Positions 39,310 to 46,251 of a stretch of DNA of 64,000 nt are shown here, piece by piece. The notes under the pieces were generated by a model. The model was given only the letters and a program-made list of their open reading frames with translations, was not told the origin of the DNA and made no database searches. The stretch is from Dehalococcoidia bacterium (lineage in GTDB: Bacteria; Chloroflexota; Dehalococcoidia; Tepidiformales; Tepidiformaceae): positions 62,001-126,000 of the forward strand of contig JADZEI010000011.1 of assembly GCA_020850615.1 (NCBI GenBank), written 5' to 3'. Position numbers and translations under genes: made by a program. Positions within the stretch are counted from its first letter, which is position 1. Every line of letters starts with the position of its first letter.

Positions 39310-39460
39310 CTGAAGTTGCACAAGGGGAGGAACACATCAGCGCCTAGCCCGCGAAGGCGGGACGGGGGACCCACCCACCAGGGGCGAACCCGGGAAACCG
39401 GGGCGGCTAACTTCCGGCCGTAGCCCGTCAGCTAACCCCGGCGGCGTCGGAAGCCTCAAC
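39310..39460 (+). ncRNA. c-di-AMP riboswitch (ydaO/yuaA class)
   Basis: The conserved core of the ydaO aptamer is readable: GGGGGACCCA (39364-39373), then GGGGCGAACCC (39381-39391), the GGGCGGCTAACTTCC region (39401-39415), and the highly conserved closing CCCGTCAGCTAACCCCGG (39424-39441), followed by GCGTCGGAAG. This ordering and the CCGUCAGCUAACC block are diagnostic of the c-di-AMP-sensing class. It lies immediately upstream of a PRC-barrel gene in the same direction. The 5' boundary is approximate; GTTG at about 39315 may pair with CAAC at 39457-39460 to close P1. Confidence 0.88.
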
Positions 39461-39491
39461 ACACTTCACGCGAAGTCGAAGGAGGCTCCAG

Positions 39492-39873: not shown

Positions 39874-41250
39874 TCAGGCGATCGTCCAGGTGGTGCCTTC
39901 GGGGCCATCTTTGAGCTCGACGCCCAGGGCCGCGAGGCCGTTGCGGACATCGTCGGCGAGCGCCCACTGCTTCTCCGCCCGCAGCTTCTTGCGCAGCTCC
40001 ACGAGGAGGTCGATGAACGGCGCCGCCTCGGCGGACTGCGTCTTCGCGCCTTCGAGCGAAAGGCCGAGCACGCCGGCGAGCTCGCGGAGGAGCTGCTGCT
40101 GGGTCACGAACTGCTGGCCGGCGTCGCGGGCGCGGTTGATGTCGCGGACGAGGTCGAAGAGGACGGCCATGGCCTGGGGCGTGCCGAGGTCGTCGTCCAT
40201 CGCGGACTCAAACCGGTCACGCGAGGCGCGCACGAGGGATGCCGTCTCTTCGTCGCCGAGGGCGCGGGCGTTCGCGGGCTGTTCCAGAAAGGCAGCTGCG
40301 CGGAGACGCTCGGCGCCGGTCTTCGCGGCATCGAGCGCCTCTTCAGTGAAGGTGAGCGGGCTGCGGTAGTGGCTCGAGAGGATGAAGACGCGGATGGCGT
40401 CGCCGCCCCAGCGCTCGATCGCCTCGTCCAGGCCGATGATGTTGCCGATGGACTTCGACATCTTCTCGGCGCCGAGCCGGAGGAGGGCGTTGTGCATCCA
40501 GATGCGGGCGAACTCCTTGCCGGTGAAGGCCTCGCTCTGGGCGATCTCGTTCTCGTGATGGGGGAAGATCAGGTCCGCACCGCCGCCGTGGATGTCGATC
40601 GACTCGCCGAGGTGGCCGAGGGCCATGGCCGAGCACTCGATGTGCCACCCGGGGCGGCCGGGCCCCCAGGGGCTGTCCCAGGCGGGCTCGCCGGGCTTCG
40701 TCCCCTTCCAGAGGGCGAAGTCGAGCGGGTCCTCCTTGAGCTCGGTCGGGTCGAAGCGGGCGCCGCTGAGCAGGTCGTCGATGTTGCGGTGGGAGAGCTT
40801 GCCGTAGCCCTCCTTGCGGCGGACGCGATAGTAGACGTCGCCGCCGGAGGCGTAGGCGAAGCCCTTGGCTTCGAGGCCCTGGATAACGGTGATGATCCCG
40901 GTTATCTCCTCGGTTGCGCGCGGGTAGGCGGTCGCGGGGAGGACGTTCAGAGACTGGAGGCTGCGCAGGTAGGCTTCGCTGAACTCGGTCGCGAGCGCCT
41001 CGACGGTCGTGCCACGGGCGTTCGCGCGATCGATGAGCTTGTCGTCGATGTCGGTGAAGTTCGTGACGTGCCGGACGGTGTAGCCGCGGTAATCCAGGTA
41101 GCGGCGGAGCGCGTCGAAGACGATGGCGGGCACGGCGTGGCCGATGTGGCTGCCCGAATAGGGCGTGATGCCGCAGACGTAGAGCTTGACCTCGTAGGGG
41201 GCCGCGGGAAGGTCTTTTTTCGAGTCAGAGAGGGTATCGAGCAGTCGCAT
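39874..41250 (-). CDS. cysS: Cysteinyl-tRNA synthetase
   Basis: A 458-residue class I aminoacyl-tRNA synthetase. It shows YVCGITPYSGSHIGHA (first zinc Cys and HIGH motif), VRHVTNFTDIDDKLI, the second zinc cluster GWHIECSAM and HHENEIAQSEAF, and KMSKSIGN near residue 270. The C-terminal DALR-type anticodon domain is present and length is normal. The ATG at 41250 is preferred to a TTG seven codons upstream. Its TAGACT promoter lies about 126 bases away, leaving a long leader that contains a short Cys-coding ORF. Confidence 0.97.
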   Translation of the reverse strand: MRLLDTLSDSKKDLPAAPYEVKLYVCGITPYSGSHIGHAVPAIVFDALRRYLDYRGYTVRHVTNFTDIDDKLIDRANARGTTVEALATEFSEAYLRSLQSLNVLPATAYPRATEEITGIITVIQGLEAKGFAYASGGDVYYRVRRKEGYGKLSHRNIDDLLSGARFDPTELKEDPLDFALWKGTKPGEPAWDSPWGPGRPGWHIECSAMALGHLGESIDIHGGGADLIFPHHENEIAQSEAFTGKEFARIWMHNALLRLGAEKMSKSIGNIIGLDEAIERWGGDAIRVFILSSHYRSPLTFTEEALDAAKTGAERLRAAAFLEQPANARALGDEETASLVRASRDRFESAMDDDLGTPQAMAVLFDLVRDINRARDAGQQFVTQQQLLRELAGVLGLSLEGAKTQSAEAAPFIDLLVELRKKLRAEKQWALADDVRNGLAALGVELKDGPEGTTWTIA

Positions 41251-41316
41251 GGGACGTCCTGTTCCGTACAAGGAGGGCAGCGCAGGCGTGTGCCGCGGAG
41301 ACGCGAGGAAGCGCCG

Positions 41317-41376
41317 CTAGGGGCGCGGGGTACAGGCGCAGCGGGACGGCGGGCGGCCGGGGAGTCGCAGGTCCAC
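41317..41376 (-). CDS. Putative leaderless cysteine leader peptide upstream of cysS
   Basis: A 19-codon ORF starting with GTG and ending TAG encodes VDLRLPGRPPSRCACTPRP. Two of 19 residues are Cys, in the tight order Cys-Ala-Cys near the end. The GTG lies exactly six bases after TAGACT, the leaderless geometry seen for many genes here. The stop codon sits in the loop of a GCGCC/GGCGC hairpin (41306-41321). Short ORFs with clustered Cys codons act as cysteine attenuators in actinobacteria. The same role here is inference. Confidence 0.4.
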   Translation of the reverse strand: MDLRLPGRPPSRCACTPRP

Positions 41377-41382
41377 GGCGAC

Positions 41383-41388
41383 AGTCTA
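41383..41388 (-). promoter_or_regulatory. -10 element of the cysS transcript
   Basis: TAGACT on the minus strand, six bases before the GTG of the short leader ORF and about 132 bases before the cysS ATG. Confidence 0.45.
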
Positions 41389-41422
41389 CCGCGACCGGGC
41401 GCTTGCGCCGAACGCGGCGCGT

Positions 41423-41428
41423 TATGAT
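41423..41428 (+). promoter_or_regulatory. -10 element of DUF433 unit 1 (leaderless)
   Basis: TATGAT six bases before ATG 41435. A GCGCC/GGCGC inverted repeat at about 41406-41421 just upstream could be an operator. Confidence 0.55.
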
Positions 41429-41434
41429 GGATGG

Positions 41435-41734
41435 ATGACGACGGCAGCACCTGTGGACATTGGCTCGCTCATCACGCGAACGCCGGGCGTGTACGGAGGG
41501 CGGCCGTGCCTCGTGGGCACGCGCTTCCCGGTGTTGCGCGTGGCCGCCGAGTATGCCGGTGGGACCACTGCCGAGGAGCTCGCCCGGGATTACGAACTCG
41601 ACCTGGCGGCGGTGTACGCCGGCATCGCGTTCTACCTCGCGAACCGGGCGGCGATCGATGCCGAGATGGAGGAGGAGGAGCGGCTCTACCAGGAGGGTGC
41701 GCGGCAGCAGCGGGAAGCGATGGGGCTCACGTAG
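41435..41734 (+). CDS. DUF433 family antitoxin (unit 1)
   Basis: A 99-residue protein of the DUF433 (VapB-like) family: ITRTPGVYGGRPCLVGTRFPV near the N-terminus is the family hallmark, and GTTAEELARDY followed by LAAVYAGIAFYLANRA is the helix-turn-helix-like half. Such proteins are normally partnered by DUF5615 PIN-like toxins. The partner gene directly downstream is interrupted by a stop codon, leaving this antitoxin without an obvious intact partner of its own. Confidence 0.85.
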   Translation: MTTAAPVDIGSLITRTPGVYGGRPCLVGTRFPVLRVAAEYAGGTTAEELARDYELDLAAVYAGIAFYLANRAAIDAEMEEEERLYQEGARQQREAMGLT

Positions 41735-41737
41735 CCG

Positions 41738-42100
41738 GTGGCGGCGGGTCTCTAGCTCGACAACGACTCGGCTGACACAGGGCTGGTTGCAGGCCTGCGG
41801 GCAGACGGCGTTCTGGTGGTGACGACGCACGAGGCGGGCAACCGGCGCCTCCCGGATCCCGAGCAGCTGGAGTTCGCGGTCCGCAACTCACTGGTCATGT
41901 ACACCGCTAACACCCGTGACTTCGCGGCGCTACACCGGGTATGGGCAACGGCGGAGAGAGACCACTTCGGCATCATCGTGCGCACGAACCAGAGGCTGCC
42001 GGTCGCGAGCCAGTTGCGTGCGCTCCGGCGGCTCCTCACCACGATGCGGCTCGACGATCTGGACAACCAACTGCTCTTTCTCGAGAACTGGCTCGCATAG
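41738..42100 (+). pseudogene. DUF5615 PIN-like toxin, broken by a nonsense codon
   Basis: From GTG 41738 the frame is open to 42100 except for a TAG at 41753-41755. At the aligned position the intact copy in unit 2 has TAC (Tyr), so one base change explains the stop. Downstream residues align well: L-DNDS, EAGNRRLPDPEQLEFAV, YTANTRDFAALHRVW and LDNQLLFLENWL. A start at GTG 41816 would lose the first strand with the conserved acidic residue. It is most likely an inactivated toxin; readthrough or a sequencing error is possible. Confidence 0.75.
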
Positions 42101-42130
42101 CTCGTGGCGCTTGCGCCGAACGCCGCGCGT

Positions 42131-42136
42131 TATGAT
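42131..42136 (+). promoter_or_regulatory. -10 element of DUF433 unit 2 (leaderless)
   Basis: TATGAT six bases before ATG 42143, copied with the module. Confidence 0.55.
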
Positions 42137-42142
42137 GGATGG

Positions 42143-42451
42143 ATGACGGCGGCAGCGCCTGTGGACATTGGAACGCTCATCACGCGGACGCCGGGCGTGT
42201 ACGGCGGGCGGCCGTGCCTGGTGGGCACGCGCTTCCCGGTGCTGCAGGTGGCGGCGTGTTACCGCGATGGCATGTCGCCTGAGCAGATTGCCAGCGAGTA
42301 TGGCCCCCTGGACCTCGCCGCCGTGTATGCGGGCGTGGCGTACTACCTCGCGAACCAGGCCGCGATCGACGCGGAGCTGGAGGAGCGCGAGGCGCTCAGT
42401 GAGCGGCTGGCGGCCGAAGGGCCGGCGCGCGGGCTCGAACGAGCCGTCTGA
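42143..42451 (+). CDS. DUF433 family antitoxin (unit 2)
   Basis: A 102-residue DUF433 protein, about 60% identical by eye to the unit 1 protein over the first half (ITRTPGVYGGRPCLVGTRFPV is unchanged). The second half is more diverged and ends in a charged tail. It lies three bases upstream of an intact DUF5615 toxin gene and should neutralise it and repress the shared promoter. Confidence 0.87.
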   Translation: MTAAAPVDIGTLITRTPGVYGGRPCLVGTRFPVLQVAACYRDGMSPEQIASEYGPLDLAAVYAGVAYYLANQAAIDAELEEREALSERLAAEGPARGLERAV

Positions 42452-42454
42452 CCC

Positions 42455-42820
42455 GTGCCGCTCCGGCTCTACACCGACAACGACTCGGGCCGGAAGGCCC
42501 TGTGCGACGCGCTCGCGCTGCGGGGAATCGAGGTCCTTCGGACGGAGGACGCAGGCAACCGGCTGCTCGCTGACGACGATCAGCTGCAGTTCGCGACCGC
42601 ACGCGGGCTCGTGATCTACTCAGCGAACTACGGGGACTTCGCCCGCATCCACAAGCGATGGATGGAGGCCGGCAGGACGCATGCCGGCATTGTCGTGCGG
42701 GTGCAACAGCAAGTTGACATCGGCACCGAGCTGCGAGCCCTCATGGCTGTAGCAGACGGCTTCGCAGCAGGCGAACTCGCCAACCAACTCGTCTATCTGG
42801 ACCAGTGGTTCAGGCGCTGA
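42455..42820 (+). CDS. DUF5615 PIN-like toxin (unit 2, intact)
   Basis: A 121-residue PIN-fold protein. It begins LRLYTDNDSGRKALCDAL, with the conserved acidic residues of the first strand, followed by GIEVLRTEDAGNRLLADDDQ and GLVIYSANYGDFARIHKRW, which supplies the later acidic cluster. PIN-fold toxins are usually Mg-dependent RNases. The start is GTG, three bases after the antitoxin stop. Confidence 0.83.
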   Translation: MPLRLYTDNDSGRKALCDALALRGIEVLRTEDAGNRLLADDDQLQFATARGLVIYSANYGDFARIHKRWMEAGRTHAGIVVRVQQQVDIGTELRALMAVADGFAAGELANQLVYLDQWFRR

Positions 42821-45557: not shown

Positions 45558-45564
45558 GGTGGGC

Positions 45565-46251
45565 ATGCTTCGCGCGCTGCACGAAATCCGCGACGACATC
45601 CGGGCGACGCTCGAGCGTGACCCAGCGGCCCGCAGCGCCGCCGAGGTGGTGTTGTTCTACCCCGGGTTCCACGCGCGGCTGGCGCACCGCCTGGCGAACG
45701 CGCTGCACCGGCGGGGCCTGCCGCTCATCCCGCGGGGCATCATGCACACGGCGCGGTTCTTCACGGGCATCGAGATCCACCCGGGCGCGACCATCGGGCC
45801 GCGGTTCATCATCGACCACGGCATGGGCGTCGTCATCGGCGAGACGACCGAGATCGGCGCGGACGTGATGCTGTACCAGGGCGTGACCCTCGGCGGGACG
45901 AGCACGCGGCGGGTGAAACGCCACCCGACGCTGCGGGACGGCGTGGTCGTCGGTGCGGGCGCGAAAGTCATCGGCGCGATCGAGATCGGCGAGAACTCGC
46001 GCGTGGGCGCGGGGTCGGTGGTGGTGACGAACGTGCCGGCGAACGCGACGGTGGTCGGCGTGCCGGGCCACATCGTCGCCTTCCACGATGAGTCGAACGG
46101 CGCGATCCAGCGGCTGCCGGACCCGGAGTGGGAGCGGATGAACGAGCTCGACCGGAAGGTGCAGGAGCTGCACGACCTGGTCCACCACCTGGAGCAGCAC
46201 GCGACGGCCGAGCACAACGGCCACCACGCGCACGAAGAGACGCGGCGGTAG
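45565..46251 (+). CDS. cysE: Serine O-acetyltransferase
   Basis: A 228-residue left-handed beta-helix enzyme that acetylates serine for cysteine synthesis. An N-terminal helical part is followed by hexapeptide repeats from about residue 70: [20 protein letters not shown], then [20 protein letters not shown] and [15 protein letters not shown], all diagnostic. The C-terminus has a coiled and His-rich tail ([15 protein letters not shown]), unlike the short inhibitor-binding tail of enterobacterial CysE. No cysK is nearby. The lipoprotein gene begins two bases after the stop. Confidence 0.95.

Follow-up and report, generated by a model that had tools for sequence, protein, structure and literature searches.

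A conserved Cys-codon leader upstream of cysS in Dehalococcoidia, a probable cysteine-tRNA-responsive translational attenuator

The window, by which we mean the whole 64,000-nucleotide stretch of Dehalococcoidia DNA that was analyzed, carries a cysS gene on its minus strand, the product of which matches TIGR00435 with 483.9 bits (cut-off 340) and the ATG of which lies at 41250. Upstream of cysS is a short ORF that opens with GTG (41376–41374) and closes with TAG (41319–41317), and this stop codon falls in the loop of a hairpin with the arms GCGCC (41326–41322) and GGCGC (41315–41311), which begins after a spacer of 5 nt from the TGT codon (Table 1). When re-read from the sequence, the TAGACT hexamer six bases 5′ of the GTG, the 19-codon ORF with Cys-Ala-Cys near its end, and the stop codon within the hairpin with cysS starting 66 bases further on were all exact to the base as given in the original prediction.

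Table 1. The leader element and its gene in the window (window positions)
Feature	Position	Strand	Remark
−10-like hexamer TAGACT; predicted leaderless-type promoter	41383..41388	−	6 nt 5′ of the leader start codon
Leader ORF VDLRLPGRPPSRCACTPRP; 19 codons plus stop	41317..41376	−	Conserved counterparts in relatives
Proposed sensor codons TGC GCC TGT (Cys-Ala-Cys)	41332..41340	−	TGC 41340–41338, TGT 41334–41332
Hairpin GCGCC-CCUAGC-GGCGC; loop holds the leader stop codon	41311..41326	−	Position and pairing conserved, covarying
Predicted anti-Shine-Dalgarno GCCUGU; overlaps the Ala-Cys codons	41332..41337	−	Pairs with ACAGG in the centroid structure
cysS Shine-Dalgarno ACAGGA; predicted to be sequestered by GCCUGU	41257..41262	−	Centroid structure and pair probability
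cysS, cysteinyl-tRNA synthetase, 458 aa; proposed regulated gene	39874..41250	−	TIGR00435

Two tandem DUF433/DUF5615 pairs, which are toxin-antitoxin-like, occupy 41435–42817 on the plus strand and start 47 nt from the leader promoter. The segments 41398–41500 and 42106–42208 are 93% identical, so the duplication of the pair reached as far as the promoter's edge. Near the 3′ end of cysS, on the opposite strand, lies a c-di-AMP riboswitch (RF00379, 62.2 bits, 39331–39461, plus strand), and such a riboswitch is also found downstream of cysS at two related loci (L024, L025). The window additionally holds a cysE gene (45559–46251, plus strand; TIGR01172, 229.9 bits) about 4.3 kb from cysS and on the opposite strand, which is without a Cys leader and has a leaderless-type start of its own (TACGCT, 7 nt, ATG). 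A second, shorter CysS/MshC-like gene (682–1866 of locus L317; contig C38 of genome G000), scoring above the cysS cut-off and below the MshC cut-off, likewise has no Cys leader.

Both strands of the window together contain 10 leaderless-type short ORFs, and two Cys codons are present only in the cysS leader. A pattern tuned to this leader matched twice in the 4.17 Mb genome, with one of the two matches being the cysS leader itself. A generic pattern (TAnnnT, 4–10 nt, a start codon, at most 45 codons, Cys-x-Cys) was applied to both strands of 29 cysS loci from the same family (247,442 bases) and returned 13 matches, every one of them before cysS or a cysE-cysS operon, which argues against the chance occurrence of two Cys codons that the original prediction had allowed for. 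Scanning the relatives with a regular expression for the same leader at other genes gave mostly unrelated sequence, and the only leaders recognized were the known ones of cysS.

To follow the leader through related genomes we used cysS, which was found in 59 of the 61 genomes searched, the window's own included. In eight genera where cysS is the first gene, a short ORF stands behind TAnnnT and 6–9 nt, with peptides that end in RCACTPRP, ACTGRPSGR, CLCTPRPCRR, ACAGRR, CRCMQRR, CLCTWR..., CTCTASGG... and CDCTPAMPRS. Alignment of the cysS upstream regions, the check proposed along with the cysteine-attenuator reading, shows that relatives retain the Cys codons together with the start and the reading frame while the other positions of the peptide change, and so sustains that reading. 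Two of the eight genera keep the second Cys codon alone, with CGC (Arg) or GGC (Gly) as the first, and single-Cys leaders within the family are seen at loci L004 and L006. The expected placement before cysS was borne out, although not for cysS alone: where cysE and cysS form an operon, the leader sits before cysE instead (peptides MTHSSDGMQRRCTCMAGSRA and MLAHPPRGCAGCSCPAGPCR, each followed by a stop codon). The leader is absent from some genera (g8, g14). The leader-less genera (loci L016, L017, L018, L020, L022, L024, L025, L026 and L028) have another conserved intergenic block upstream of cysS, CACCCCGCCAAG.GTG.CC.T.AGG.TCGCACA...GGCAAT, located between cysS and a divergent transglycosylase-like gene. 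This block had no Rfam match in L016, L018, L020, L024 and L025, and it may be the leader RNA of the divergent gene.

Across the leaders the layout follows a strict rule: UGC-NNN-UGU is followed after 4–5 nt by a hairpin that is GC-rich and covaries. All 48 non-redundant leaders have UGU as the second Cys codon, the first is UGC in 49 of 54, and the base eight positions after the first nucleotide of UGU, where the hairpin usually starts, is G in 47 of 48. Cys-x-Cys is the norm and is what the window has, with CC or CCC occurring besides in a few leaders elsewhere. The Cys codons of the genes themselves are about 90% TGC in the same genomes (19 of 19 in cysS; 23 TGC versus 5 TGT in cysE). The hairpin region is more stable than its shuffled versions, with a mean z of −1.8 as compared with +0.2 and +0.8 for control windows, and its alignment is 85% paired, with changes on both sides in nine of ten pairs. 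Its covariation score, computed on an alignment that was fitted to the covariance model and contains a few reverse-strand matches, is 0.228 versus 0.133 when shuffled, with no shuffle reaching 0.228 and slid controls at most 0.11.

To follow the leader through the class Dehalococcoidia, 77 cysE loci were examined, and related leaders were present in many families other than the window's own, with peptides ending, for example, in RCACPQGRSR, CCACP, RCSCRSGRC and TCICL before the stop. Some cysE leaders, such as those after ispF, have no −10 before the start and a Shine-Dalgarno-like sequence instead, so leaderless initiation is not essential; the predicted leaderless start looks right for the family of the window, and where the leader follows ispF, as it does in several others, it has an apparent Shine-Dalgarno of its own. 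We then scanned genomes blindly with a covariance model composed of UGCNNNUGU and the hairpin. In the class, 20 of 245 genomes matched at E ≤ 0.001, once each and always just upstream of cysE, several of these 20 matches being training sequences of the model. In the phylum, 400 genomes gave 17 matches, 14 of them outside Dehalococcoidia, and 12 of those 14 lie before cysE (11) or cysS (1), with two seemingly spurious. These counts are lower bounds, since so strict a model does not pick up the family of the window itself, where hairpins are shorter. It had no match at about 70 loci of other phyla and one among 80 cysS loci, from a Chloroflexota record; a lenient match within 300 nt of cysS occurred at 2 of 80 loci, mostly from other phyla. 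At L221, L222, L226 and L230 (family f59) and at L224 and L233 (f70) the leader ORF spans the hairpin and stops 23 nt into cysE; the overlap of leader and gene makes this a possible translational coupling variant. Overall, the element seems to be widespread and ancient in Chloroflexota.

A more far-reaching idea, which we regard as doubtful though worth stating, is that Chloroflexota may have a cysteine attenuator class of their own, used throughout the phylum, that senses through its very geometry of UGC-NNN-UGU, 4–5 nt and hairpin. A ribosome with UGU in its A site would have the hairpin at its mRNA entry, and the wobble-read UGU would be slowed further. If true, two Cys codons, or even one, could report the charging of tRNA-Cys, and no Cys run would be needed. 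The rule that UGC comes before UGU is explained by nothing in the known cases.

Whether or not the geometry acts in this way, the leader also shows complementarity to the ribosome-binding site of the gene that follows. The segment running from about 12 codons before the Cys codons to just after them is more complementary to the Shine-Dalgarno region of its own gene, by 2.3 kcal/mol, than it is in between-family swaps (sign-flip p 0.002, 26 groups), a p-value which, like the others here, is to be read with caution since several windows were tried. Against shuffled leaders at their own Shine-Dalgarno region the mean z is −0.68 (t −4.1), and controls with upstream sequence, the hairpin or gene-start targets gave no significant effect. 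This longer segment was used because the Cys-codon segment alone is weakly own-specific across 48 leaders (p 0.035 by group; 0.08 and 0.056 in other tests). Pairing between hairpin and Shine-Dalgarno region did not exceed its control and was rejected. In the window, the centroid structure is essentially one helix, between CGCCUGU at the Cys codons and ACAGGACG at the cysS start, with a pair probability of about 0.55 for GCCUGU/ACAGG; the whole leader there folds no more stably than shuffled sequence (z +1.15). When a ribosome was simulated by masking, the predicted accessibility of the Shine-Dalgarno peaked locally with the ribosome at the first Cys codon (0.10 versus 0.035 at the second), a modest gain, and there was a second broad maximum when the 5′ end of the leader was masked. 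For many cysE leaders, the Shine-Dalgarno is predicted to pair with leader sequence that lies 5′ of the Cys codons and not with these codons themselves.

We consider it probable that the leader is a cysteine-tRNA-responsive translational attenuator of cysS. In the proposed mechanism, transcription would start at or beside the GTG and ribosomes would initiate on the leaderless 19-codon ORF. When Cys-tRNA(Cys) is ample, ribosomes would pass UGC-GCC-UGU, terminate and depart, after which GCCUGU could pair with the ACAGG of cysS; the loop so closed would contain the folded stop-codon hairpin, and translation of cysS would be poor. When charged tRNA-Cys is short, a ribosome would pause with UGC in the A site and mask GCCUGU as far as the hairpin base, thereby freeing the Shine-Dalgarno and allowing more synthetase to be made. 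We infer where transcription starts, that ribosomes stall, and in which direction and how strongly cysS responds; the computed support consists of the phylum-wide conservation of the ORF, the Cys codons and the hairpin, their association with cysS and cysE, and the complementarity between leader and Shine-Dalgarno. We favor a translational output because that complementarity exceeds its controls, the window's leader is predicted to fold into the corresponding helix, and the masking profile has a local peak at the first Cys codon.

The main rival keeps the same sensor and gives it a transcriptional output, where, through Rho or as a hairpin terminator lacking a U tract, the conserved hairpin or the RNA exposed behind the leader would decide whether polymerase enters cysS or cysE. 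No structural part is better conserved than the hairpin, the spacing of which from UGU is fixed, and Rho has been proposed for the terminator-less cys leaders of mycobacteria (PMC1262725). However, no U tract follows the hairpin, the minus strand of this part of the window yielded no intrinsic terminator or terminator-like site, and the hairpin is expected to remain intact while a ribosome waits at the first Cys codon, so it is ill-suited to act as a simple terminator. The excess of leader–Shine-Dalgarno complementarity over controls also speaks against such an output, and we judge it unlikely, though by some way the most serious competitor; the evidence points more to freeing of the ribosome-binding site of cysS than to a terminator switch. 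A classical trp-type attenuator was rejected, there being no intrinsic terminator hairpin with a U run before the gene.

Two further explanations are much less probable. The leader could be a chance or non-regulatory small ORF, or could act merely by translational coupling or re-initiation of cysS, and it is true that in f59 and some other families the ORF extends beyond the hairpin and in several cases stops 23 nt into cysE, an arrangement that would permit coupling. Yet what is conserved is the Cys codons, their codon identities and their distance to the hairpin, and not the remaining peptide; all family pattern matches fall at cysS or cysE-cysS; and in the window the leader stop is 66 nt from cysS, so that we give this account very little weight. 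Alternatively, the Cys-x-Cys peptide might sense metal or redox state as a nascent chain instead of reading out charged tRNA-Cys. CxC is a plausible metal-binding pair and nascent peptides reportedly can sense copper, which offers a precedent. This seems highly improbable here, since the regulated genes are cysE and cysS, the synonymous codons are fixed in the order UGC, UGU, a constraint for which a peptide sensor has no use, leaders with a single Cys occur (L004, L006), and no predicted export signal was noted.

The translational attenuator that we propose for cysS can be compared with several known systems. A short ORF with Cys codons precedes a gene of the cysteine pathway, and the ORF and its sensor codons are conserved amid a variable remainder, both of which are features used to recognize amino-acid attenuators. 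In translation attenuation of the erm type, stalling of a ribosome within a leader ORF exposes a ribosome-binding site that had been hidden. The proposed stall on the cysS leader would likewise free a sequestered site, but the signal in erm is an antibiotic on the ribosome, and here it would be a shortage of charged tRNA-Cys. The covariance models of Rfam 15, T-box included, had no match at the leader in the window or at related loci, and membership of the T-box or another Rfam family was rejected, the sole Rfam match of the window being the c-di-AMP riboswitch elsewhere.

Leader-peptide control by cysteine was known from Actinobacteria and from one alphaproteobacterial order, and the literature we searched, which took in few subscription papers, contained no earlier report for Chloroflexota. 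The uORFC-8-2 motif upstream of cysS in Rhodobacterales carries its Cys codons in tandem within a stem, has an intrinsic terminator that includes a U run, and acts by transcription attenuation (PMC8632094). The element described here shares with it a short ORF, two Cys codons and RNA structure before cysS, but identity with uORFC-8-2 was rejected since there are no tandem Cys codons in the first stem and no intrinsic terminator with a U run (PMC8632094). The leaders predicted in Mycobacterium, Propionibacterium and Bifidobacterium are short ORFs ahead of cys genes that carry runs of Cys codons close to their stop, with no obvious terminator (PMC1262725). The Chloroflexota leader resembles these actinobacterial leaders, the mycobacterial ones among them, in having Cys codons near the stop and no intrinsic terminator, and differs in that theirs are Cys runs with no conserved hairpin seen (PMC1262725).

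The element suggests that leaderless short ORFs act as regulators outside Actinobacteria, and it offers an entry point to gene regulation in a mostly uncultured phylum. The closest comparison is with the polycysteine leaderless short ORFs that Canestrari et al. (2020) are said to have described as attenuators in mycobacteria. According to published accounts, leaderless short ORFs with polycysteine precede cysteine and sulfur genes in mycobacteria and mediate cysteine-responsive translation attenuation (PMC9031893, PMC13236596, PMC9094748). The window's family shares with them a short ORF with Cys codons upstream of cysteine genes, here predicted to be leaderless; unlike the contiguous Cys run of mycobacteria, the Chloroflexota leader has Cys-x-Cys in a fixed UGC-NNN-UGU order, a conserved hairpin 4–5 nt after UGU, cysE-cysS or cysS as its targets, and Shine-Dalgarno-led versions. 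The predicted mechanism is related in principle to that of the mycobacterial attenuators, yet the element stands outside their group by layout, its Cys codons being non-contiguous and followed by a conserved hairpin at a fixed distance.
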